A stretch of DNA of 33,643 bases from a virus. Of the stretch, positions 1,510 through 33,643 are shown piece by piece. Location: IMG/VR virus record IMGVR_UViG_3300046001_002224, positions 1 through 33,643 of that record; one strand, given 5' to 3'. Numbering within the stretch: the stretch's first letter is position 1; every line of letters starts with the position of its first letter. Both the position numbers and the translations under genes were made by a program. A model generated the notes under the pieces. That model did no database searches. It saw only the letters and a list, made by a program, of their open reading frames with translations, and was not told the DNA's origin.

Positions 1510-2669
1510 TATTGTTTAACTTTTACTAATCTATATGATGTCTTTACTGATAGGTTGTTTGCACTTACATATGTTATTCTAGGAATAAAATCTACTTTTT
1601 CAGGTATCGCTATTAGATAGTCCATATCATCAAAATATAACGTACCAAACTGTAACTCAAAAGGAAATCTTAAACGTGGTGATTCCGTCCATGGTTTATA
1701 GTAGAAATATCCATCTGCTGAACCTGTTGTTGCCCCTCTAAGATTTGCTGTGATTCTATCAATAAATACTTTACTACCTGTTGGAACAGAATAAGCAGCA
1801 CAATACGATTGTCCTAAACCTGCATCAATAGTCCAAAATATATTAGCGGGTGTTGCCGTATGTCTTAGTGTGATTAATCCAACATTGATAGTCGAACCAT
1901 TATCGAAGTATGCAAAGTTTGAACGCCAAATATTATGACCTAGCGCATACGTTCCAGCACCTGTAACGGCTATACTGCCAAACGTATAATCTGTATCGGT
2001 ATCAGTTGCCATGTAAGAATAGTAAACTGTTCCTGTATCTGCACCTGCTACAACAATTTCACCTGCTGCTGCCGTTGCAACAAATCCTGTATAAACACCG
2101 CCTGAACTCCACAAATCTTCAGGAACAGAACCTGTATCAACATCAGCATTAAACCCATCTTTTATAGTTACGTTATGACCTTGTACTAATCCATTAGCTA
2201 GATTAAGATTAAAGTCAATAGGACGTGTTACAAGTGTATCAGCATCTTGTTGAATAGATTGGTTAAGATTGCTAGTTAATGATTGGTAAGAACCTAGTAA
2301 AGTTTGTAATCTTAGGTATGTTTGATTGCTTGCTGAAGTATTCTCAAATCTAACTCTAAAGTATCTACGTGTTACGGTAATACGATGCACTTCATTTACA
2401 TTAGCTGCTACTGCATAAGTTAGTGTAGAATCCCAATTAGTACCATCAATAGAGAAGTCAACGTATAGTATGCCTACTTGGTCAGTCTTACAAGCTACAA
2501 CTACTGAGGTATAACCACTAGCATCTTCTGAAGTTCCTGTAAAAGTAGCTCCAGCATTTAATAAAGTAGAGGTACTGTTAACTGTCGATGTTGAACTATT
2601 AGCTAACATTCCATCAGTCAACCCCTCTAGGTATGTTGTCCTATATTCAATATTGTATCTAGTTGCCAT
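1509..2669 (-). CDS. Virion structural protein, probable tail or fibre component
   Basis: 386 residues. The N-terminal roughly 140 residues have an alternating beta pattern (TSVVVACKTDQVGILYVDF, then SIDGTNWDST) seen in phage fibre or baseplate beta-sandwich domains. The rest is Gly/Thr-rich beta structure without a motif I can name. The start overlaps the gp10-like gene by 11 bp and the stop abuts the next tail gene. A role in the tail tip or host contact is likely from context. It could also be a tail decoration protein. Confidence 0.6.
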   Translation of the reverse strand: MATRYNIEYRTTYLEGLTDGMLANSSTSTVNSTSTLLNAGATFTGTSEDASGYTSVVVACKTDQVGILYVDFSIDGTNWDSTLTYAVAANVNEVHRITVTRRYFRVRFENTSASNQTYLRLQTLLGSYQSLTSNLNQSIQQDADTLVTRPIDFNLNLANGLVQGHNVTIKDGFNADVDTGSVPEDLWSSGGVYTGFVATAAAGEIVVAGADTGTVYYSYMATDTDTDYTFGSIAVTGAGTYALGHNIWRSNFAYFDNGSTINVGLITLRHTATPANIFWTIDAGLGQSYCAAYSVPTGSKVFIDRITANLRGATTGSADGYFYYKPWTESPRLRFPFELQFGTLYFDDMDYLIAIPEKVDFIPRITYVSANNLSVKTSYRLVKVKQ

Positions 2670-3168
2670 ATTTCTTTAAAGTATATTCTAAAAACTCATC
2701 TATATCTAATCCGAATGCTTCTATCACATCGTCACCTAATCTCTTATAGGCTAATTCAAAAGGACGGGTAAAGAAAAGACTTGGTTTGATTCCATTGTTA
2801 AAGACTGACCTAGCAATTAGGTAGCTTAATGATTTATGTGTGATGAATCGTCCTTTCTTATCTCTACCCTTTATTCCTTTTCTCTTAATCCACGCTTCAA
2901 ATACATGAGCAGGTGGTTGTTTATTTGTATAGCTAAACGGTGTATTGTACTTCTTCTTCTTACCGCTAACTCCTTGGTCTTGAAATTGACCGTAGATAGG
3001 CATTTCAAAGCCTAATTCAAAGCTATTAGCACTAACCTTTAGAAAGCTACTCATCTCGTTATAAAGTGTCTTAGATGCGTTCTTTTTATTCCTAGTTAGA
3101 TTCTTCCTAGCTTCGGTAATAACGTGCTTTCTAAAAGCGTTTAACTCATCCTCTACGTTAGATAGCAT
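2659..3168 (-). CDS. HK97 gp10-like tail completion protein
   Basis: 169 residues, basic, with an N-terminal helix rich in Lys and Arg. The motif YGQFQDQGVSGKKKKYNTP and the downstream PPAHVFEAWI fit the HK97 gp10/tail-completion family, where the YGxFxDxG segment is typical. Such proteins terminate the tail at the head-proximal end. Its ATG (3168-3166) lies 8 bp upstream of the stop of the -1 frame of the chaperone-like gene, so translation is probably coupled. Followed by tail structural genes. Confidence 0.65.
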   Translation of the reverse strand: MLSNVEDELNAFRKHVITEARKNLTRNKKNASKTLYNEMSSFLKVSANSFELGFEMPIYGQFQDQGVSGKKKKYNTPFSYTNKQPPAHVFEAWIKRKGIKGRDKKGRFITHKSLSYLIARSVFNNGIKPSLFFTRPFELAYKRLGDDVIEAFGLDIDEFLEYTLKKYGN

Positions 3169-3906
3169 TCTTTCTCTTTAATCGTTTTAATTCAAGTTTG
3201 TTCTTTTGGTCTTCAAATACTAAGAAGTTCAAACAAGCTAATAATGGAAGTCTTGTAACTTCGTCAAATTTTGTAAGGTCACCTCTAGCGATTGCGTATA
3301 TAGATTGATACCATCCCCAGGACTTGTTGAACTGTTCTTCTTCTGAGTAGCCATCTTGATTGCTTCCACCTCCAAAGAGTGTAGCGTAGCCATCAGTAAT
3401 TCGTTGTTTAAATTGTAAAAAAAAACCATCGCACCCATTACGACATCAAGTGGTGCATACTGCATAACCTCCGAATAAGTAGCAGTACCTTCATACGGTT
3501 CAATCTCGTACTTATCACCTTTAGTCTTTACAATAGGTCTAAACATAACCGCCATAGCTTTGTGCATTGTGTCCCACTCAGCTATGTTAGTTTCTATGTC
3601 AATGTACTCACCGTATTCTATATCTTCTAAGCAAGGAATGAATCCAAACTCCTTACCTCCTAACTCAAATCTATGAATGAATTTCTTTTCATCGTTAAAC
3701 ATTTCGTTAAGATGTTCAACCGTTTCATTAATTGATCTTGCATTAAAGTAAACAACCTGAGATAGTTTAATCTTACAGAAGATACTAATCATCTTTTGAT
3801 TGATAAACTCCTCTGAATCTTCTTTATCTACCAAGCGCATAAACAACTGATACTGTTCAAGTGTAAGGTCATTAAGTTTAGATGGTATAGTAATCTCTAC
3901 ATTCAT
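3158..3906 (-). CDS. Frameshifted long form of tail-chaperone-like protein (gpGT-like)
   Basis: A -1 slip on nine T (3425-3417 read on the minus strand) joins codons 1-163 of the 3238-3906 gene to an overlapping frame of 86 codons ending in TAA at 3160-3158, giving about 249 residues. The -1 extension reads like real protein: an acidic stretch (DGYSEEEQF), an aromatic core (KSWGWYQSIYAIARGDL, then FDEVTRLPLL) and a charged helix (FEDQKNKLELKRLKRKNAI). It contains no ATG. The only plausible internal initiator is a GTG five codons upstream of the slip point. This matches the gpG/gpGT layout of tail assembly chaperones, but sits just after terminase rather than next to the tape measure. Confidence 0.6.
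3238..3906 (-). CDS. Tail-assembly-chaperone-like protein, zero-frame short form
   Basis: 222 residues starting MNVEITIPSKLNDLTLEQYQ. The N-terminal part (FGFIPCLEDIEYGEYIDIET, then MHKAMAVMFRPIV) recalls a protein family found beside tail genes in Bacteroidota phages. After the T9 run the zero frame adds about 59 residues (from YNLNNELLMATLHSLE to the end, including GDGINLYTQSLEVTLQ) before TAA at 3238. Both frames after the slip look protein-like, as expected for a gene making two products. Function as a tail assembly chaperone is inferred from the frameshift architecture and neighbours, not from a recognised motif. Confidence 0.75.
   Translation of the reverse strand: MNVEITIPSKLNDLTLEQYQLFMRLVDKEDSEEFINQKMISIFCKIKLSQVVYFNARSINETVEHLNEMFNDEKKFIHRFELGGKEFGFIPCLEDIEYGEYIDIETNIAEWDTMHKAMAVMFRPIVKTKGDKYEIEPYEGTATYSEVMQYAPLDVVMGAMVFFYNLNNELLMATLHSLEVEAIKMATQKKNSSTSPGDGINLYTQSLEVTLQNLTKLQDFHY
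3417..3425 (-). promoter_or_regulatory. T9 slippery sequence for -1 frameshifting
   Basis: The minus strand reads ATG GTT TTT TTT TAC in the zero frame. Slipping back one base gives the codon TTA and then an open frame of 86 codons. A homopolymer of U heptamers is a standard -1 slippery site. No downstream stimulatory hairpin was established. A homopolymer-length error in the assembly is the main alternative. Confidence 0.6.
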
Positions 3907-3938: not shown

Positions 3939-5144
3939 TTAATAGATAGCGTAGTTACCTCGGTTGGGGTTTTCTAACTGATAAGTAACTGCATAACGTA
4001 TAGCATCAATAGCATGGTTAAAGTTATCTATTGGAGTTTTAGACTTCTTTTCTAACCACGAGTAGTTATTAAGTTCTTTGTGTAACTCTATGCTTTCAGG
4101 GTCAATAATTAGATCGTAGTCTTGTAGTATTGAGATACCATGAGTAACAGAACCTTGACCTTTGACTGCTTCAAGTATGTTTAATCCTTTAGCTCTAAGT
4201 TCGTTTATTAGTCGTGGTTCAGCGCTATCAGCAATGGTTAAACTATCTCCAGCAACACGCTTGTTAATATCATATAAGTCTGAAGTAGTTAATCCCGTCT
4301 GATATAAGTGTAGCTTAATGTATATCTTCTTATTAGTCTTATCAATAGATGTTTCAACTAATGTACTAGGGTCATTACTAAACCCATAATCTTGACCGAA
4401 TACTGAAGTGCCTACATTAACAAAGTCACCTATCTTCCAATTGGTAAAGATAACACCTTCAGCTTTATCTAACCAACCACCCATTATCTGATGCTTAAAC
4501 TTCTCAGGTCTATGCGCTTTGATTTGCTCTATCTGGTCAAGGAATGATTTAGACAGGTTATCAATGTTATCCAAGTAGGTTGTATGTATGTAGGTAGTAT
4601 CACCATTCACTAATGTACTACCTTCTTGAATACCTTTAGACTCGAAGAACCTGCTAAATATCCAGTGTTCTTTCGTTGTTGGGTTAAGTATCAGTATTAC
4701 CCTATTCTGTTTTGTTCTATGCCGAATAGATAAGTCAATTTTATCGAATACATCCTCATCTGTTAACTCTTCAGCCTCATCTAATACCCAAGTTGTTACG
4801 CCTTGTAATGATTTAAGATTAGCTGTCTGAGTTCCTGAAGAAGTCTTAATACCTTTGAAGATAATCTTACTCCCTGTTACAGTATTTATAATCTCATCTT
4901 TAGTGATTACAAAGTTAGCAGTCAATCCCATTAGTTCAATCTTCTCAATGAACTCAGGAATGATTGAGATATGAGCAGAAACTAAAGTATATCTAGTGAA
5001 TAGTATTACATGGTCACTTTCAAATGTAAGCAACTCTATAAATGAAGTTACACTAAAGGACTTAGAACTACCTCTACCTCCTGTTACTATAAAATATCTA
5101 CTATCAGAACCTAGATTCTTATACTTATCATTTAGAGTTACCAA
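3939..5144 (-). CDS. terL: Terminase large subunit (ATPase and nuclease)
   Basis: 401 residues; drives genome packaging at the portal. The N-terminal ATPase has a Walker A (GGRGSSKS, about residues 22-29), a Walker B (TWVLDEAEE, about 118-126) and a coupling motif in ILILNPTT. The C-terminal RNase H-like nuclease has its first acidic residue in FGQDYGFSNDPS (about 250-261), a second in IADSAEPRLI and a third in HAIDAIRYA near the end. Length and motifs fit the PBSX/Terminase_3 type. It overlaps the small subunit gene by 17 bp and precedes the frameshift gene. Confidence 0.95.
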   Translation of the reverse strand: MVTLNDKYKNLGSDSRYFIVTGGRGSSKSFSVTSFIELLTFESDHVILFTRYTLVSAHISIIPEFIEKIELMGLTANFVITKDEIINTVTGSKIIFKGIKTSSGTQTANLKSLQGVTTWVLDEAEELTDEDVFDKIDLSIRHRTKQNRVILILNPTTKEHWIFSRFFESKGIQEGSTLVNGDTTYIHTTYLDNIDNLSKSFLDQIEQIKAHRPEKFKHQIMGGWLDKAEGVIFTNWKIGDFVNVGTSVFGQDYGFSNDPSTLVETSIDKTNKKIYIKLHLYQTGLTTSDLYDINKRVAGDSLTIADSAEPRLINELRAKGLNILEAVKGQGSVTHGISILQDYDLIIDPESIELHKELNNYSWLEKKSKTPIDNFNHAIDAIRYAVTYQLENPNRGNYAIY

Positions 5145-9810: not shown

Positions 9811-10209
9811 TTATAATTGAATACCTAATATTGATAAACTGATTTCATCCCAAGTTGAACTACTTTTGAATCGTTCACTTTCTTCAGTTGAACAATCTAT
9901 TTCTTCCAACTCCATTCCATCACATTCAAGAATTAAAGTAGGTGTTGCCCAATTAGAACATAAGTAAGTGTAATTATCTTTAGTTGGTTTACCATCCTTA
10001 AAGATTACACCACCTGTATAATCCCAATCACCTTGCAAGCCTGCTTCAGCTATTAGATTAGGGTGTGTTTTTAATCTATCTTTAATGATTTCAGCCGCCT
10101 TATCAAAATTAAAGGCTCTTAAAGGAATCCCTAACTTCTTGTTGATTTGTCCTTGTCCTTGTCCGTTTGGATTGAATCCATCCGCAAATGTTAATTCACT
10201 TTTTTTCAT
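9811..10209 (-). CDS. Unknown early protein, first gene of the ERF-SSB operon
   Basis: 132 residues starting MKKSELTFADGFNPNGQGQG. A central helix (FDKAAEIIKDRLKTHPNLI) and a GDWDYTGGVIFKDGKPTKDN beta segment suggest a small globular protein. I do not recognise the family. Its position just before erf suggests a role in recombination or replication. It lies 22 bp downstream of a weak -7 box with an upstream operator. Confidence 0.7.
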   Translation of the reverse strand: MKKSELTFADGFNPNGQGQGQINKKLGIPLRAFNFDKAAEIIKDRLKTHPNLIAEAGLQGDWDYTGGVIFKDGKPTKDNYTYLCSNWATPTLILECDGMELEEIDCSTEESERFKSSSTWDEISLSILGIQL

Positions 10210-10230
10210 ACTCTTTATGTTTTGTTTCTG

Positions 10231-10238
10231 CTAAATTA
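10231..10238 (-). promoter_or_regulatory. TAATTTAG -7-like box of the ERF operon
   Basis: One mismatch to TAnnTTTG, 22 bp before the ATG at 10209, and no TTG at the -33 position. The operator at 10274-10290 is centred exactly 44 bp upstream of the end of this box. A weak promoter with a strong upstream site suggests activation. Confidence 0.5.
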
Positions 10239-10273
10239 CTGCTTAATTCAATACGTTCTACTGTGGTGGCTAG

Positions 10274-10290
10274 TTTAGAATGATTCTAGA
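10274..10290. promoter_or_regulatory. Operator palindrome, one mismatch
   Basis: TTTAGAATGATTCTAGA differs from the perfect site at 8035-8051 by one base. It lies between the stop of the 10298-10516 gene and the promoter of the ERF operon. Confidence 0.65.
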
Positions 10291-10297
10291 TAAGCTA

Positions 10298-10516
10298 TTA
10301 CAGTATGTGCATATATTCAGGCATGCCACATTTTATACAATTTTCACTCATTACCCCATTAAATGAACAAGGCATTTTAATTAAGTCATCACTATTAAAA
10401 TTTTCAAGTTCTTTAGCCTCGTTTACTATTACATAAAACTTAGATGCTGATATATTAATACTAGAATCTGCAATCATACTTCCTAGTTGTTTTTCTATAT
10501 ATTCTACCCCTTTCAT
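10298..10516 (-). CDS. Small unknown protein with C-terminal Cys pair
   Basis: 72 residues starting MKGVEYIEKQLGSMIADSSI. The C-terminus has MPCSFNGVMSENCIKCGMPE, with three Cys and a final His that could hold a metal. It begins 1 bp after the stop of the 50-residue gene upstream. Last gene of the long replication operon. Function unknown. Confidence 0.65.
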   Translation of the reverse strand: MKGVEYIEKQLGSMIADSSINISASKFYVIVNEAKELENFNSDDLIKMPCSFNGVMSENCIKCGMPEYMHIL

Positions 10517-10517
10517 A

Positions 10518-10670
10518 TTATTTATTTATAATTAATTTACGTGCGTCTTCAAGTGCTTGTTGTTGCATTTTATTAAATTTTATTTTTGCCTTTTCCATAT
10601 TATTACTCAATCTTTTCATTGTTTTTAATAAACGCTCACCGCTAACTTTTTTTCCTTTAGTTTGTTTCAT
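10518..10670 (-). CDS. Small basic coiled protein, 50 residues
   Basis: The ATG at 10670-10668 begins MKQTKGKKVSGERLLKTMKR and the frame ends at TAA 10520-10518. Very Lys-rich and helical, which suggests nucleic-acid or protein binding, though no motif proves it. Packed with one base before the next gene and 11 bp after the previous one, which supports its being real. Confidence 0.6.
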   Translation of the reverse strand: MKQTKGKKVSGERLLKTMKRLSNNMEKAKIKFNKMQQQALEDARKLIINK

Positions 10671-10681
10671 CTCTCTATCTT

Positions 10682-11149
10682 TTAATTATTACTTACAAAC
10701 TCATCAAACCATATAACGAAGTCATCGAAGTTACGAACTATAATGTAAATACCTCCTGCACGTTCAATACTCGCTTGGTATTCCTTCTGAACATATGACT
10801 GTCTATCCGCTCCGTACTTAATCTCTATCTTAACTGACCCTCCTCTAATCGTTGCGCTTATATCCGCACTACCTTTAGTTCCTTGTGTTGGAATGTACTT
10901 ACCTTTGAGTTGACGTTCATTCTCGCCTACCTTAATCTTAGCACCTTCAACATACGTTCCTTGAGTGGATATTCTCTCAGCTTGATAACCTTCATAGTTG
11001 ATTATATCAATCACACACTTAGTTAATCCGTTTGCACTATTGTCACTCCATACCTTCTTAGGTATGGCGTGTTCAGGGAATGATGGGTACTTGACCTTCA
11101 TTAGCTTGTAGTGGAAGTCTAGTAGGCGTTGTTTGTTTTGTTTAGTCAT
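10682..11149 (-). CDS. VRR-NUC-like nuclease (PD-(D/E)XK fold)
   Basis: 155 residues. The catalytic pattern is visible: D96 in TKGSADISA, E109 and K111 in VKIEIKYG, then Gln118/Gln121 in SYVQKEYQ and a hydrophobic strand (GGIYIIV). This is the VRR-NUC/resolvase-like arrangement in which a GSxD strand precedes ExK. In a replication operon it probably cleaves branched DNA such as recombination intermediates. It overlaps the Zn-ribbon gene by 4 bp. Confidence 0.8.
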   Translation of the reverse strand: MTKQNKQRLLDFHYKLMKVKYPSFPEHAIPKKVWSDNSANGLTKCVIDIINYEGYQAERISTQGTYVEGAKIKVGENERQLKGKYIPTQGTKGSADISATIRGGSVKIEIKYGADRQSYVQKEYQASIERAGGIYIIVRNFDDFVIWFDEFVSNN

Positions 11150-11959: not shown

Positions 11960-13338
11960 ATCACTCTATTTTTAATTATAAACTTCTTTACTCCGTTGCT
12001 TGTCACTTCTTCATAGTCTAAACCATAGAAGTCACAATATCTTTTAATATCTTTTGTAACCATGTTCTTAGTTTTAGCATCCCACTTCTTAGGAATGTAA
12101 CTAATGTAGTTATCATAGAATTCATTAGCGTTAATATACTCACCTTTATTAACAGCTTTAATACATTCCATTAACTCCTTTGTAATATCCACTTCCAACT
12201 GCTTGTAAGGTAAAGATATTAAATCATAGGTTAACAATCCTTTATCTAAGTATTTCTTTAAGCATTCAATCATGTAGCTGTCAAACCTTGCTTTCTCCAT
12301 TTCATCCCAATCATCATACAACCTATGACCAAAGTATTGTATTGGTGTATGGTTTGCATTAAAGAACGGGCTTAACTCTACTTCAAACTTTCGTGCTTCA
12401 AATGATCCGCCCTTACCTTTGATTGTATAGTTAGTTGTAATCACAACCTTTGGAGAATCTTCAATAGGTAGCTTAATAGTGTCCTTACCTTTATAAGTGA
12501 TACTTATTCCCTCAGTGATTACACTAAACAAATTAATGAATGGAAATCCTTTCTTAACATCATCGAATACCATTACTTGACAATCAGTCTTAATCGCTTG
12601 GTAAGGAAACGCAGCGTCGAATCTAAATGACTTGCCATCCAATGCTTGTACTTTCTTTAGCTTACCAACCATGTTACAAAGTAAACCCTTACCACTCCTT
12701 CCATTCGGTTCATCAGATATAAGTTCATCATTCAATATAACCGCTTTATTGTCACCTCCAGCGTTATAAGAATGAAGTAAGTAACCTATAACAGTTTGTA
12801 GTGTATTATACCTGTCTACATTTTCACCTGCTATCTTCCAAACAAATGTTCTAAACTCGCTTTGATGGTGGTCAGCTTCGATAAAGTTTCTTTTTATTAC
12901 TTGGTCTTCCCAAATTGATAAACCGAAATCAGTATAAGGTTTTAACTTAGCACCATCTTTCGTTACTTCCATCACTCCATTCTGATAAAATAGATATGCA
13001 GTATCTTTAGTATCTCTGATAACTTTGATTTCTTCAGTAGTTAGCATAGATAGATATTGTCTTGTGAATGTAGATGCTTTACCTGTCATTAGATTGTATA
13101 CCCTTTGACCTAAGTCATTATCTAAGATATAATCTAATACAAAGTCTTTAATCTCAAACTCGTCTACAATCTCTAAAAATATACCGTTCTTCTTTATAAA
13201 GTTGAATCCACTAACATCATTCGGTTTGTTCTTTATGAAATTATGATGCTCCAGGAAACGCTTGAAATTATAGTTGTTCAATGCAAGTTTACCGTTTTCA
13301 CTTTCTGAGTAGAATGGCTCTAAATTATTTGAATTCAT
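11956..13338 (-). CDS. SF3-type replicative helicase/ATPase
   Basis: 460 residues. The helicase core lies in the second half: Walker A EPNGRSGKGL (about 210-219), Walker B QVMVFDDV (about 254-261), motif C with sensor Asn in KVVITTNYTI (about 297-306) and an Arg-finger candidate in FEARKFEVELS. The N-terminal 200 residues look like the linker domain of phage primase-helicases but show no primase catalytic triad. It would unwind DNA at the phage origin. The candidate origin and structured leader lie just upstream of this operon. It overlaps the 65-residue gene by 14 bp. Confidence 0.88.
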   Translation of the reverse strand: MNSNNLEPFYSESENGKLALNNYNFKRFLEHHNFIKNKPNDVSGFNFIKKNGIFLEIVDEFEIKDFVLDYILDNDLGQRVYNLMTGKASTFTRQYLSMLTTEEIKVIRDTKDTAYLFYQNGVMEVTKDGAKLKPYTDFGLSIWEDQVIKRNFIEADHHQSEFRTFVWKIAGENVDRYNTLQTVIGYLLHSYNAGGDNKAVILNDELISDEPNGRSGKGLLCNMVGKLKKVQALDGKSFRFDAAFPYQAIKTDCQVMVFDDVKKGFPFINLFSVITEGISITYKGKDTIKLPIEDSPKVVITTNYTIKGKGGSFEARKFEVELSPFFNANHTPIQYFGHRLYDDWDEMEKARFDSYMIECLKKYLDKGLLTYDLISLPYKQLEVDITKELMECIKAVNKGEYINANEFYDNYISYIPKKWDAKTKNMVTKDIKRYCDFYGLDYEEVTSNGVKKFIIKNRVI

Positions 13339-13665: not shown

Positions 13666-13918
13666 CAAAATGAGAAAAATAAATACAACTTTTCTACTTT
13701 TATTCTACTTTTTTCTAACTTTTTTCTGAGTGGTGGCGTGGGTTTGAGGTCGATTAGGAGAAAAAAGGAAAAAAAAACGGAAAAAAAATATTTTTAAGCT
13801 ATAAGGGTTTTTGAATATAAAAAAAGAATAAGAGAAATTTTATTTTTTTCTACTTTTAGCACTCTAGCCCTAGTAAACATTGAGAATAAAATAGTAGAAA
13901 GTTAGAATAAAGCAGAAA
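13664..13918. other. AT-rich candidate replication origin with phased TTCTAC repeats
   Basis: This 255-bp stretch has no gene. TTCTACTTT-like units start near 13692, 13703 and 13713, and a TTCTG near 13724, a spacing of about 10-11 bp; another is at 13848-13857. In the opposite orientation, GTAGAA, GTTAGAA and GCAGAA occur at about 13894-13917. Between lie purine runs of A with a few G. Phased repeats in two orientations beside the helicase operon suggest an origin or a bent regulatory region. Confidence 0.4.
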
Positions 13919-13950: not shown

Positions 13951-15042
13951 TTAGTTAAAGAACTGTTCAAACTGTTGCGAACCATACTCTCCTTTAGTTA
14001 ACTCTATTATCTTTGCTATGTTCATCTTTCGCTTAGTCAAGTTCTTACGGCTTAGAAACTCCTTAACACCAAACTGACACGCCCCAGTTATAACCCTGTA
14101 ACACTTAACCGCATCTTCAAAGGATAGTACACTTTCTAAAGTCATTCCTTTGTAATCGTCTTTGCTTCGATTACCTATCTTAAATATTAAATCTTCTTTA
14201 GCTTCTTTGATCGTATCACCATGCGAGTAATTTCCGTTACCATCAGTCACAACAAAAAATACTTTCTCAGTTGCATACTTCTTAACCTTCCAAACTAATC
14301 CTTTCTTATGTAAGACCTCACAGAATACACCATCTACTTTGATGTATTTGCCGTTTCTCCATGACAATACATATGGACATTTTCTATTAATGTTGCTTGA
14401 ATCTTTTATTTGAGTACCTCTCAAATCTAAGCTACCTCCCACGGTTAGGTTGTCAGGTAGTACACTCACACTCGTACCTTCCAAATATAAGTCACCTCCC
14501 ACGGTTAGGTTGTCAGGTAGTACACTCACACTCGTACCTTCCAAATCTAAGTAACCTCCCACGGTTAGGTTGTCAGGTAGTACACTCACACTCGTACCTT
14601 CCAAATCTAAGTCACCACCAACAGTTAGGTTGTCAGGTAGTACACTCACACTCGTACCTCTCAAATATAAGCTACCTCCCACGGTTAGGTTGTCAGGTAG
14701 TACACTCACACTCGTACCTCTCAAATCTAAGCTACCTCCCACGGTTAGGTTGTCAGGTAGTACACTCACACTCGTACCTCTCAAATATAAGTCACCTCCC
14801 ACGGTTAGGTTGTCAGGTAGTACACTCACACTCGTACCTTCCAAATCTAAGTAACCTCCCACGGTTAGGTTGTCAGGTAGTACACTCACACTCGTACCTT
14901 CCAAATCTAAGTCACCTCCCACGGTTAGGTTGTCAGGTAGTACACTCACACTCGTACCTTCCAAATCTAAGTCACCACCAACAGTTAGGTTGTCTTTCGT
15001 GATTCCGTACTGTGCTAAAAATTCCCAATCTTTCTTTTTCAT
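13951..15042 (-). CDS. Tandem-repeat (NLTVGG) phage protein of unknown function
   Basis: 363 residues. A short head (MKKKDWEFLAQYGITKD) is followed by ten 20-residue repeats of the type NLTVGGxLxLxGTSVSVLPD (about residues 17-215), then a non-repeated C-terminal domain of about 150 residues (CPYVLSWRNGKYIKVDGVFC, later YRVITGACQFGVKEFL). Only three positions vary between repeats: D/Y/S, D/Y and E/R. The regular pattern suggests a beta-solenoid rod. Similar proteins occur in various phages, to my knowledge without a proven function. It is a single-gene unit with its own promoter, operator and terminator. Confidence 0.85.
   Translation of the reverse strand: MKKKDWEFLAQYGITKDNLTVGGDLDLEGTSVSVLPDNLTVGGDLDLEGTSVSVLPDNLTVGGYLDLEGTSVSVLPDNLTVGGDLYLRGTSVSVLPDNLTVGGSLDLRGTSVSVLPDNLTVGGSLYLRGTSVSVLPDNLTVGGDLDLEGTSVSVLPDNLTVGGYLDLEGTSVSVLPDNLTVGGDLYLEGTSVSVLPDNLTVGGSLDLRGTQIKDSSNINRKCPYVLSWRNGKYIKVDGVFCEVLHKKGLVWKVKKYATEKVFFVVTDGNGNYSHGDTIKEAKEDLIFKIGNRSKDDYKGMTLESVLSFEDAVKCYRVITGACQFGVKEFLSRKNLTKRKMNIAKIIELTKGEYGSQQFEQFFN
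14408..14991 (-). repeat. Ten-copy 60-bp coding tandem repeat
   Basis: The 60-bp units are nearly identical in DNA, with differences mostly at the three variable codons. The unit near 14581-14640 and the first coding unit near 14941-15000 share the same rare variant (ccaccaacag in place of cctcccacgg), so parts of the array were copied internally. Recent expansion by slippage or unequal recombination is likely. Confidence 0.9.
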
Positions 15043-29635: not shown

Positions 29636-31498
29636 TTATAGCGTTGCTGTTTTAATTTGGTTTCTATCTAGTGATTGAGCAGTTGTTACAGCGCCACTTA
29701 CAACGAATGCCTGAACAGGTGGCTGATTATTCAATCCCTCCATTATTTGATTAGTATTAGAGTTACCAACTACATTAAACGAAGCTGGATTACTTGCTTG
29801 ACCAGCACTTGCGCCAACTCCACCACCAGTTGAAGCACTTACACTACCACCGCCACCTTCAAACTGAGTTGATGAAATCTTCTTAACATTAGCTACACCT
29901 GAAGCAACCACACCAGCCGCTGCAACAGCTCCTAAAGCTAAACCAACAGGTCCAGGTATTGTTGCGGTCATTCCTGTGAATGCTGATACTGCACCCTTGA
30001 TAGTATCAATAGTTGCCATTGCAATATTGAGCTTCTTCTGAGTGTTAAACGCTTTCTTTTGTGCTGCATTAGATTTACCAGCAAATGCACCAACCAAATC
30101 TGATATACCTTGAAGCCCACCTTTAGTAGCGTCAAGTGACATATTCATCATGTTCTTTTTACGTGCAAGTTCGGCTGCATCAGCAGCTTTTTGTTTCTCA
30201 GCTTCAGCAAGTCTAGCAGCTTCATTAACCGCAGCTTCTTTATCTGTTTGCTCCTTTAATAAGTCTAAGTCAAGCGTGTTGTTCTCTAATGTTATCGCTC
30301 GTTTAGTTTCTAAGAATGTAGTCTCTAATGCTAACTTACCAGCGTTCATTTCAGAAATTCTAGCAAGTTCTTCTTCACGTGCCTTAGCCGCTGCATTGTC
30401 AATCTTTACTTCAGGTTGGTTATTAAGTGAAATCTGAGCAGTCTTTAAACTATCTATTGCATCAATACTCGCTTCTAGCTCTTGGTTACGTGCTGTTAAA
30501 CTTGAATTAGTAGACTGTATCTGTTTATTCATCTCAGCATCAGCCTCTTTAATCTGGGTTAATGCGTCTGCAATCTCCTTCATTCTAAGAGAAGTAAACA
30601 ACCCTAGCTTATCTTCAGCAATTGCTTGTTTAGCTGCAATTATTTGTTGTACTAACTTTTCCTTAGTTTCCTTTTGTACTTCTTTAAGTTTTTCCTTCTG
30701 AGCATTAAGCGATCGTATTGCAGCCTTATCTTGTTCTACTGCAATTTCTAGCTCCTTAATCTTAGCTGCATTGATTTCCTTCTGTACCTTGGTAGCGTCT
30801 TCACCCATCGCGATACGTCTAGCACCTTCACGGTCTAATGCCTTTATAGCTTTCTCGCTACTTGTATTCTGTTCTTTAGCAGTTTTCTCTAATGCAAGTC
30901 TATACTTCTCACTCGCAGCAGTTGAACGTTTAAACGCGTCTAGTACCTCAGTGTTTGCCTTGGTTGCAAAGTACATCGCAGCAGCACCGAGAGCCACAAA
31001 TGCGGTTACGATGAGCCCTATTGGATTAGCCATGATTACAGCGTTCAAAGCCTTAAACGCTGGGATAGATTCACGAACCGATTGAATACCTTGAGCAATA
31101 GCCATAGCACTATTGACTTTCAATAACGCTTCCTCTACTTTAGCGCTCTCAGCGCCAAACGCTCCCATTGTACCTTGAGCAAGCTCAAACCCTCCGGCTA
31201 AACCCTGAATAGAACCGCCTAACTTTTGCGACATTGTACCACTCATTCCATCGACTGCCATATCAACGTCGATGATGACTTTCTTCATCTTGCCGACCTG
31301 GGCGGTCATTTGCTTAAACTGTTCTGAAGACGAATCCCCAGCCTGAGCCATTGCGTATAATTGGTCTTCTAACTCGCCTATCTGAGCAGTTAACGGTTGT
31401 ACTTCATCGTATAAGCCACCAACTGCATTTTCTAGCTTTTCTAGTTCAGCTCTACCTTCAGCAGTCTTAACGTCTATTACTATCGTTTTCTTTTCCAT
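29636..31498 (-). CDS. Tape measure protein
   Basis: 620 residues. A long helical N-terminal part (IGELEDQLYAMAQAGDSSSE) leads to hydrophobic segments near 160-180 (NPIGLIVTAFVALGAAAMYF) and 510-540 (PGPVGLALGAVAAAGVVASG), with a coiled-coil centre rich in Lys, Glu and Ala. This is the standard tape measure plan. The length is short, so the tail should be short for a siphovirus. It overlaps the 51-residue gene by 19 bp. Confidence 0.85.
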   Translation of the reverse strand: MEKKTIVIDVKTAEGRAELEKLENAVGGLYDEVQPLTAQIGELEDQLYAMAQAGDSSSEQFKQMTAQVGKMKKVIIDVDMAVDGMSGTMSQKLGGSIQGLAGGFELAQGTMGAFGAESAKVEEALLKVNSAMAIAQGIQSVRESIPAFKALNAVIMANPIGLIVTAFVALGAAAMYFATKANTEVLDAFKRSTAASEKYRLALEKTAKEQNTSSEKAIKALDREGARRIAMGEDATKVQKEINAAKIKELEIAVEQDKAAIRSLNAQKEKLKEVQKETKEKLVQQIIAAKQAIAEDKLGLFTSLRMKEIADALTQIKEADAEMNKQIQSTNSSLTARNQELEASIDAIDSLKTAQISLNNQPEVKIDNAAAKAREEELARISEMNAGKLALETTFLETKRAITLENNTLDLDLLKEQTDKEAAVNEAARLAEAEKQKAADAAELARKKNMMNMSLDATKGGLQGISDLVGAFAGKSNAAQKKAFNTQKKLNIAMATIDTIKGAVSAFTGMTATIPGPVGLALGAVAAAGVVASGVANVKKISSTQFEGGGGSVSASTGGGVGASAGQASNPASFNVVGNSNTNQIMEGLNNQPPVQAFVVSGAVTTAQSLDRNQIKTATL

Positions 31499-31635: not shown

Positions 31636-33643
31636 TCTGAAATCCTCCTTTGTTTATTCTCAGTTACTCGTTGGTTAGTAAATCCTGTACCTTCAAGTAT
31701 TCTAATTATCCTACATCTATTCTGAGTAATCGTTAAGTACTGAGTAGGTAATGTTACACCCCTAACAACTATTGTTAATGGGAATGTATTAGTTCTAGCT
31801 ACACCTGTGTTAGCAGTACAAGTGAATACAATTGTTTGTTCTCCTGTTGGCGTGGTATCGTCAGGTGTTGCAAACTGAGTTTCTAAAGGTGTACCGATTG
31901 TAATTGTAGTGTCTGAAGAAACACTAAACGCAACATCTAAAGTCTGACTAGCACAATTGATAGTAAACGATTGATTATAGTCTTGTGCATCTCGCCAATT
32001 ACTAAGCAGTACTAACTCCACTTCACCCGTTACTAAGTTTTGCTTCATCTCGTTAATTAGATACTTCTTATCTCTAATTACCATGCTATCATTTAATCGT
32101 ATAGAAGTCATTTCGTTTAATGGAAACAAACACTTTACGTTTAGTATTCTAGTCTTTAGATTATACAAGTTAAGTAAGTAGCTTTCATAATATTTACGGT
32201 ACAAAGTATTATTAACTACATTCAAACTGAGTGAGCTATACTCACTACCAAAGTTTAAGGTATAATCTTCTTGTGCAAAGTTCATATCTTGACCGAACGG
32301 AACATAGCCCGTTATCTGCTCAACTGTTGAACCCGTATCGAAGTAAACAGAAACGTTAACATCTATATAGTCGTACATATACAGTAAAGTAGGCTTAGGC
32401 ACATAGTTTTTATACTCAGGGGATGTTCCTAGGCAATACCCTACTTGTACATTAGTATTCGTAAACTTATTATGTAACGGTGTTTCAAATGGTAACTGTA
32501 TAGTATAATCGCCGCCATCGTATTCAAACGTAGCTGATAAGTCAGAATACTCTCGCTTGAACAAGTCAAAGAACTCACGATTCATAAAAGACAACGACTG
32601 TTGATACTTGAAATTAATGTTCTTGTATAGTTTAGGTCTATTAACTGTTATGCTTTCAAATGAAGTGTAAGGTGTTATGTTCCAATCAATCCCACTGTTA
32701 TAATAAACATCTAAAGGTTCGATTTTAAACGTGGTTAGATTACTACCTGTAACTGTTAGGTTATAAGTATTTACAAGTCCATTAATGAAATCAATTACTT
32801 TCATCTCAGGAGCAAGGAACGCTAAATCAGTAGTTAAAGTTGTGCTTAATGAGGTGTTGGAAGTGTCCGTATATGTATCAGTAAACGGTACATTTGAAAC
32901 TGCTGAGAAGTCAATTAGATTATAACTTAACTGATAACTTACAGTGTTAGAAAACGTCATGGCTGAAGTAGAACGTAGTTTAAATGTAAACGACCTACTT
33001 AGTCCTACATCATTACCCTCTGCTATTACTGAGAATATTTGCGCCCCGTTACCAGGTAAGCTAAACATATAGTTACCACTATCATAAACATCTAAGTAGT
33101 AATCAATAGTTGAGCCTGTGTTAATTTCAACAGATACAAAGTGACTAACGGCAATTGCAGCATCGTAAGGAGCGACAATCAAAGACGATGGTGAAACATA
33201 GCTATACTGTACCGTATCAGCGTAGAGTATATCTGTACTTACACCAGCTTCACCAAACTTTAATCCCTTGCCCTTAGTAAAGAATTGGAATGTTTCCTTA
33301 TTCTTAAACCAAAGATAAGCGTGTCTAAACTGCTTAGTGTCTAGGAATGAACCTGTAAATGTTAGCCCATATTGAGTAGCAATAATATCTAGTATTGACT
33401 TAACTCTTACAGCTGGAAACAACTCGCTAAAATCTATTGGTGAAGTATTTAAGCTAATATCGTTAGCGTCAGCACTTCCATATTGCCACACTCTGTTAGA
33501 ACTAATTAAAGGATAGCGTACATCGTAGTCAGTAGTATTGAAGTCAGTTTCAATACGTGCTAATATTTCAGTGCCTGTATAGTCATGGTCTAAAGTAGAA
33601 TAGTTTAAGTCACCTAGCTTAGCGTCACCTATTAAGTCTTCCT
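31632..33643 (-). CDS. Tail/baseplate protein, main part of the gene crossing the join
   Basis: This is residues about 159-785 of the protein that begins at 475. The frame is open to the window edge; bases 33515-33640 repeat 1-126. Mostly beta-rich. The C-terminal quarter (SFTINCASQTLDVAFSVSSD, TPTGEQTIVFTCTANTG) looks like an Ig-like or carbohydrate-binding beta-sandwich. A large tail-tip or baseplate protein next to the tape measure is the likely role. Confidence 0.8.
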   Translation of the reverse strand, partial: EDLIGDAKLGDLNYSTLDHDYTGTEILARIETDFNTTDYDVRYPLISSNRVWQYGSADANDISLNTSPIDFSELFPAVRVKSILDIIATQYGLTFTGSFLDTKQFRHAYLWFKNKETFQFFTKGKGLKFGEAGVSTDILYADTVQYSYVSPSSLIVAPYDAAIAVSHFVSVEINTGSTIDYYLDVYDSGNYMFSLPGNGAQIFSVIAEGNDVGLSRSFTFKLRSTSAMTFSNTVSYQLSYNLIDFSAVSNVPFTDTYTDTSNTSLSTTLTTDLAFLAPEMKVIDFINGLVNTYNLTVTGSNLTTFKIEPLDVYYNSGIDWNITPYTSFESITVNRPKLYKNINFKYQQSLSFMNREFFDLFKREYSDLSATFEYDGGDYTIQLPFETPLHNKFTNTNVQVGYCLGTSPEYKNYVPKPTLLYMYDYIDVNVSVYFDTGSTVEQITGYVPFGQDMNFAQEDYTLNFGSEYSSLSLNVVNNTLYRKYYESYLLNLYNLKTRILNVKCLFPLNEMTSIRLNDSMVIRDKKYLINEMKQNLVTGEVELVLLSNWRDAQDYNQSFTINCASQTLDVAFSVSSDTTITIGTPLETQFATPDDTTPTGEQTIVFTCTANTGVARTNTFPLTIVVRGVTLPTQYLTITQNRCRIIRILEGTGFTNQRVTENKQRRISE
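33515..33640. repeat. Right copy of the 126-bp terminal overlap
   Basis: Identical to bases 1-126. The three following bases (cct) differ from 127-129, probably an end-of-contig error. Confidence 0.95.

Follow-up and report, generated by a model that had tools for sequence, protein, structure and literature searches.

A candidate recoding site beside the terminase gene

Does a run of nine T in a structural gene of an uncultured virus mark a programmed −1 change of reading frame, and, if so, how would the shift be made and what would the two products do? The DNA considered here, called the window, is the whole of IMG/VR virus record IMGVR_UViG_3300046001_002224, positions 1 to 33,643, which is metagenomic. 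Bases 1-126 are identical to 33515-33640, with three mismatching bases coming next, and this exact 126-nt end overlap shows the record to be a circular genome, complete at ~33.5 kb. The record ends cut the circle inside a tail gene. The features relevant to the question are as follows.

3939..5144, minus strand: terminase large subunit gene (terL; Terminase_3, 9.5e-31), directly upstream of the T9 gene
3158..3906, minus strand: whole trans-frame gene, predicted to give a ~249-aa fusion (~29.2 kDa) beside a 222-aa product (~25.8 kDa)
3238..3906, minus strand: zero-frame ORF of 222 aa, stop at 3240-3238, with the homologous N domain; the open frame is kept and appears to be under selection
3417..3425, minus strand: slippery run of nine T in the phase GTT TTT TTT TAC (A9 on the plus strand), containing the heptamer T_TTT_TTT
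3158..3418, minus strand: −1 extension, 86 codons plus TAA, stop at 3160-3158; predicted all-helical, with an SWGWY motif
2659..3168, minus strand: next gene, 169 aa, phrog_29822 of unknown function, ATG at 3168
29636..31498, minus strand: tape measure protein, 620 aa (tape-measure PHROGs, 5e-8)

Reading the gene from 3425 to 3417 on the minus strand reproduced the phase of the run given in the first-pass annotation, which had also described a −1 slip into protein-like sequence reaching past the zero-frame stop. Up to the slip the zero-frame product has an N-terminal domain of 163 aa, followed by a 59-aa zero-frame tail. Slipping −1 opens LQFKQRITDGYATLFGGGSNQDGYSEEEQFNKSWGWYQSIYAIARGDLTKFDEVTRLPLLACLNFLVFEDQKNKLELKRLKRKNAI, 86 codons that continue beyond the zero-frame stop and overlap the next gene by 11 nt (ATG at 3168, stop at 3160-3158). 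No ATG is present in the −1 frame of the window gene, as had been reported. The gene was likewise correctly placed next to terL and several genes from the tape measure: since the genome is circular, the count is read through the ends of the record, and it gives four intervening genes. Structural genes follow the T9 gene up to the tape-measure gene, and in the window the T9 gene is adjacent neither to that gene nor to any recognised tail-tube gene.

Apart from T9 itself, the window has a single A/T run of nine; it lies at 13769-13777, outside the listed genes, in an A-rich stretch (13769-13849) with A9 and A8 runs (T9 and T8 on the coding strand) that is a possible regulatory region. Elsewhere, at 13951-15042, a 363-aa ORF carries a tandem array (14414-14994) in which a 60-nt unit (LTVGGDLDLEGTSVSVLPDN) is present about ten times and over which antisense frames are also open.

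The run and the frame relation are conserved among homologues

A search with the fused protein recovered 80 viral loci, and in all of those with both halves the C-terminal half lay in the −1 frame behind a T9 or T10 junction. With an N-domain profile and a scan of bacterial genomes the agreement rose to 161 of 161, and after one more scan it stood at 232 of 232 loci, representing 183 distinct sequences in 49 clusters. In a sample of loci picked independently of the T9 gene, with terL of phage P12024L as bait, the T9 gene was present in 74 of 74 complete loci. The pooled collection comprises 252 distinct homologues in 75 clusters (70% N-domain identity), every one with its C-terminal half in −1 and with a junction run of T9 (227 sequences) or T10 (25). 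Two remote branches, long-branch outliers, supply 57 further distinct sequences, a few of which may duplicate ones among the 252, and these too are all −1 with T9 or T10. Among the 252 homologues we found no T8 or shorter run, no other heptamer and no in-frame fusion, and neither TTC nor T7 occurred in the junction of any homologue across the 75 clusters. Across 1,238 kb of related loci, runs of T9 or longer turn up away from the junction only 15 times, whereas every complete homologue has one at the junction; the T9 at the junction is thus, judged from these sequences, not due to chance.

The first-pass annotation had proposed that homologues be searched for an extension carried in −1 after a homopolymer, and had named as evidence against a programmed shift either a run length leaving a single frame or a separate second gene with its own conserved start. 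The extension follows the run in −1 in all of the ~300 relatives (252 distinct and 57 remote), and both of the opposing findings, sought among them, were absent. In all complete homologues the predicted frame relation and slip site would yield two products from one start, as in G/GT pairs. A profile built for the extension alone gave no sufficiently conserved pattern.

The closest view of cultured phages comes from the Nonlabens phages P12024L and P12024S (Inhavirus), which carry true homologues (~27-33% identical) with the junction CTT TTT TTT TAT and the same frames. Like the window, both have a terL neighbour, T9, a −1 extension and a tape measure several genes on, and the SWGWY motif of the window appears as KWGWY in P12024L and KWSWY in P12024S; unlike the window, their zero-frame tail is only ~25 aa (59 aa in the window). 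The gene is annotated in each as two hypothetical genes, gp40 and gp41 in P12024L (12001-12695 in that locus) and gp38 and gp39 in P12024S. Because the P12024L annotation splits one gene in two, its halves entered PHROGs as two families, phrog_32199 and phrog_38404, both of unknown function.

Both frames appear to be under selection

To separate coding in the zero frame from the influence of the overlapping −1 frame, we held the −1 protein fixed and redrew synonymous codons in 1000 simulations for 50 representatives. The zero frame was open for a median of 65 codons in the representatives versus a median of 6 in the redraws, and none of the 1000 simulated means attained the observed mean. Substitution rates, from 45 independent pairs, agreed with this result. 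In the single-frame N part they were 0.072/0.041/0.263 at codon positions 1/2/3, whereas in the 22 codons nearest the slip they were 0.130/0.075/0.088 at −1 positions 1/2/3, indicating that the zero frame is constrained there. Farther from the slip (0.094/0.060/0.154) the −1 frame dominates, and past the zero-frame stop the rates are 0.075/0.056/0.184 at the same positions. Since the −1 WGWY codons account at least in part for a GDG motif seen behind the run in the zero frame, we assessed selection on that frame by its avoidance of stops and by the substitution pattern. By these comparative measures the substitution patterns are those of double coding, with both products under selection. In most genomes, too, the next gene begins in overlap with the −1 stop and not with the zero-frame stop (−4 nt in 100 of 178 and −1 in 24 of 178).

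Given that frame and run are conserved in all homologues and that both products appear to be selected, the comparative data very strongly support a genuine, conserved and hitherto unannotated programmed −1 frame transition, predicted to yield a 222-aa protein and a ~249-aa fusion. No description of this transition was found in the literature searched, whose coverage largely stopped short of subscription papers.

Error, phase variation or two genes

Homopolymers are error-prone and the window is a metagenomic virus record, so that a sequencing or assembly error, or a broken gene, is an obvious reading; yet ~300 distinct sequences, along with independently sequenced cultured phages, have the same run and frame relation, and both frames are under apparent selection. 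These comparative data refute sequencing error and a pseudogene, the probability of which we consider negligible. Replication slippage of the T run could instead toggle the gene between single-frame and two-frame forms, given that T9 tracts can be hypermutable (PMC3711429, PMC1088944), but such phase variation would leave mixed lengths and frames, and the C-terminal half is found in no other frame anywhere. With the frame relation identical in every homologue, phase variation was rejected as scarcely credible.

Also very improbable, if somewhat less so, is the reading annotated in P12024L and P12024S, in which two distinct genes overlap and the second is translated from a start of its own, either non-ATG or coupled. 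The P12024 phages do have TAATG at the zero-frame stop, and the T9-GG variants have a TTG in the −1 frame. This TTG, however, is replaced by TTA, TTC or TTT in many sequences, and 158 of 178 lack an ATG in the −1 frame either upstream of the slip or in the first 40 codons. Moreover, the extensions are homologous from the run onward (F-L-x-F-[KR]), a point that precedes the P12024 ATG. As no start is conserved, an independent start for the second ORF was rejected.

RNA polymerase or ribosome

The heptamer T_TTT_TTT is in phase at every junction listed, as a ribosomal slippage cassette demands, making ribosomal slippage possible. The run also stays at nine T or more (T9 or T10) in all three codon phases, the length expected for transcriptional slippage, which at T runs has a reported lower limit of Tn, n>8 (PMC3711429) and for which nine-nt runs have served as the threshold in many genomes (PMC1088944). 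Phase variants that keep this length include AGT/AAT TTT TTT TTG, ATG TTT TTT TTT TGG and ACT TTT TTT TTT CAT. Most tellingly among these sequences, length appears to have survived a phase change between one locus (L290), CTG TTT TTT TTT GTG, and its sister (L320), GTT TTT TTT TCG. The upstream NTT codon has been lost in at least four lineages, and in each the run is still at least nine, the loss having been compensated.

No stable RNA structure was detected downstream of the run in 25 representatives (mean z −0.5 to +0.2), using 60-nt windows starting 0-60 nt after it and a model that excludes pseudoknots; a downstream RNA stimulator, which not all known −1 ribosomal cassettes require, was therefore not seen. 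The notion that T9 is the U tract of an intrinsic terminator was rejected, there being no terminator-like site at T9. The +1 frame closes 1-3 codons past the run in 50 of 50 representatives, which we did not count in favour of transcriptional slippage because double coding nearly forces this closure.

A run of at least nine in all codon phases and the lack of downstream structure point towards RNA polymerase, as does the weakness of U_UUU_UUU at the ribosome in E. coli, where it is far less shift-prone than A_AAA_AAG (PMC5009743). We slightly favour, at roughly even odds, RNA-polymerase slippage as the principal mechanism, to which ribosomal slippage may add. The run-length argument is suggestive and not decisive, because T at the flanking positions also suits hydrophobic residues, V/L in the zero frame and L/F in the −1 frame, and run length may partly follow such protein constraints. 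The same two products could arise from −1 slippage of the ribosome on T_TTT_TTT alone, in the manner of gpG/gpGT, with the extra T a by-product of the hydrophobic residues. The in-phase heptamer in every homologue would suit this account, the well-studied tail-chaperone shifts are all ribosomal (PMC5009743), and a stimulator need not be strong where only a few per cent is to shift; but a purely ribosomal site does not readily explain why T7, T8, TTC and other slippery heptamers are missing from 75 clusters, why the run persists at nine or more in lineages without the upstream NTT, or why no downstream structure accompanies it. We regard a purely ribosomal shift as a real possibility, with the balance leaning against it. 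The stronger proposal is a transcriptional form of the gpG/gpGT switch, in which a widespread Bacteroidota phage lineage would fix the ratio of its two tail-chaperone-like proteins not by ribosomal frameshifting but through slippage of RNA polymerase on a run that must reach at least nine T; on these sequence patterns it seems to us slightly short of an even bet.

A possible role in tail assembly

The first-pass annotation had likened the gene to the tail chaperones and invoked the gpG/gpGT logic. The G/GT-like, two-product layout stands, whereas significant homology to a known chaperone was not found, and the ribosomal route that this logic assumed may be replaced by RNA polymerase. Pfam gave no match, PDB none by sequence or by fold, and the PHROG matches were to families of unknown function only. 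With the N half and the extension modelled as separate chains, AlphaFold predicted an alpha/beta domain continued by a long helix across the slip site (pLDDT 77.4) and a helical extension (pLDDT 84.8). Fold matches to the N model comprise many uncultured phage proteins, P12024S and R9VW65 of Flavobacterium phage 6H (191 aa, E 2e-4); Foldseek returned one named tail chaperone, as a weak match (E 0.067, TM 0.40). By its length and a marginal profile match (E 0.014), R9VW65 is probably 6H gp10, in the region leading to the 6H tape measure.

Behind the 191-aa gp10 of 6H (10000-10927 of that locus) are ~300 unannotated nt with a protein-like 105-codon ORF in the −1 frame, with no start near its beginning and a stop between the frames; this region may hide a second case of recoding, or it may contain a sequence error. 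Among uncultured phages, proteins of 226-267 aa (e.g. A0A6J5N0W0, 267 aa) match the extension fold, several of them also the N domain, and according to the models these distant relatives may be in-frame fusions. The 'tail protein' family phrog_166 matched weakly in 12 of 47 members (best 4e-4); as a bridge to known tail proteins it was dropped, the window having no match and several control genomes matching.

Chaperones of the G/GT type bind tape measure and tail tube proteins, are missing from the virion and depend on their short:long ratio. Their genes usually, though not strictly, lie between the major tail protein and the tape measure, just before the latter, and the T9 gene instead adjoins terL, as it does away from the tape measure in P12024L. 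In more distant Bacteroidota phages that share the terminase (Riemerella CRP2, Bacteroides BS-TP2 and Olleya Harreka_1) the portal comes after terL, suggesting that the terL neighbourhood is lineage-specific. The terL of Shigella phage Henu10 (OQ791282) scores like a Riemerella-phage terL (48.4% to the window over the same span), and its host label may be wrong.

The programmed shift could be real while its products, encoded beside terL, do something else, for example head-tail completion, packaging or scaffolding. The terL-side position far from the tape measure, conserved in P12024, and the lack of significance in chaperone homology suit such a role; on the other hand, two products with a helical extension are typical of tail chaperones, and the structural genes after the T9 gene lead to the tape measure. 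We consider another role unlikely, though far from negligible, and our best inference is that the pair are tail assembly chaperones following the gpG/gpGT logic.

We propose that the T9 gene would be transcribed with the late operon after terL and give two proteins with 163 residues in common. Most expression would stop in the zero frame (222 aa), while a fraction would slip −1 at T9 and gain the 86-residue helical domain (~249 aa), mRNA carrying an extra U from RNA-polymerase slippage on the nine-T run being read as −1 and ribosomal slippage on U_UUU_UUU possibly adding to this. The shared N domain may bind one partner, the tape measure, and the −1 domain may recruit another, the tail tube, for which a 180-aa protein is a candidate, with slippage setting the ratio. 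To the explanation as a whole, a 222-aa and ~249-aa pair of G/GT-type tail chaperones made by a T9 slip that is at least partly due to RNA polymerase, we assign a probability of about 0.7.

Comparison with known systems

The site points to a conserved recoding event across a large group of Bacteroidota phages, where the two halves of the gene have been catalogued without a function and, for the cultured relatives, as separate genes. It may offer a handle on tail assembly in Bacteroidota phages, and the ~300 sequences, with every phase of the run at a length of nine or ten, form a natural set for comparing ribosomal and transcriptional slippage.

Like lambda gpG/gpGT and the wider group of frameshifted tail assembly chaperones, the locus has one start, two predicted products and a place in a structural operon. 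As in lambda, the −1 shift adds a short C-terminal domain and the zero-frame product runs past the slip. Unlike lambda, in which the slippery heptamer is G_GGA_AAG, the window gene has a nine-T run and not a mixed heptamer, adjoins terL four genes before the tape measure, has a long 59-aa zero-frame tail that appears to be under selection, and shows no detectable sequence homology. The position and the missing homology are the reasons that we did not file the gene as a gpG/gpGT member. If RNA polymerase does slip here, evolution would have arrived at the G/GT logic by a second molecular mechanism.

The nearest parallels for that mechanism are Shigella mxiE and spa13 and Thermus dnaX, in which a nine-A/T run in the coding sequence gives access to a second frame, the run of T. 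thermophilus dnaX being nine A (PMC5009743, PMC3711429, PMC1088944). The extension of Shigella spa13 overlaps the next gene, as does that of the window gene (PMC5009743, PMC3711429, PMC1088944). These three are bacterial genes for which mRNA heterogeneity has been demonstrated, whereas the window gene is a phage structural gene known from sequence alone.
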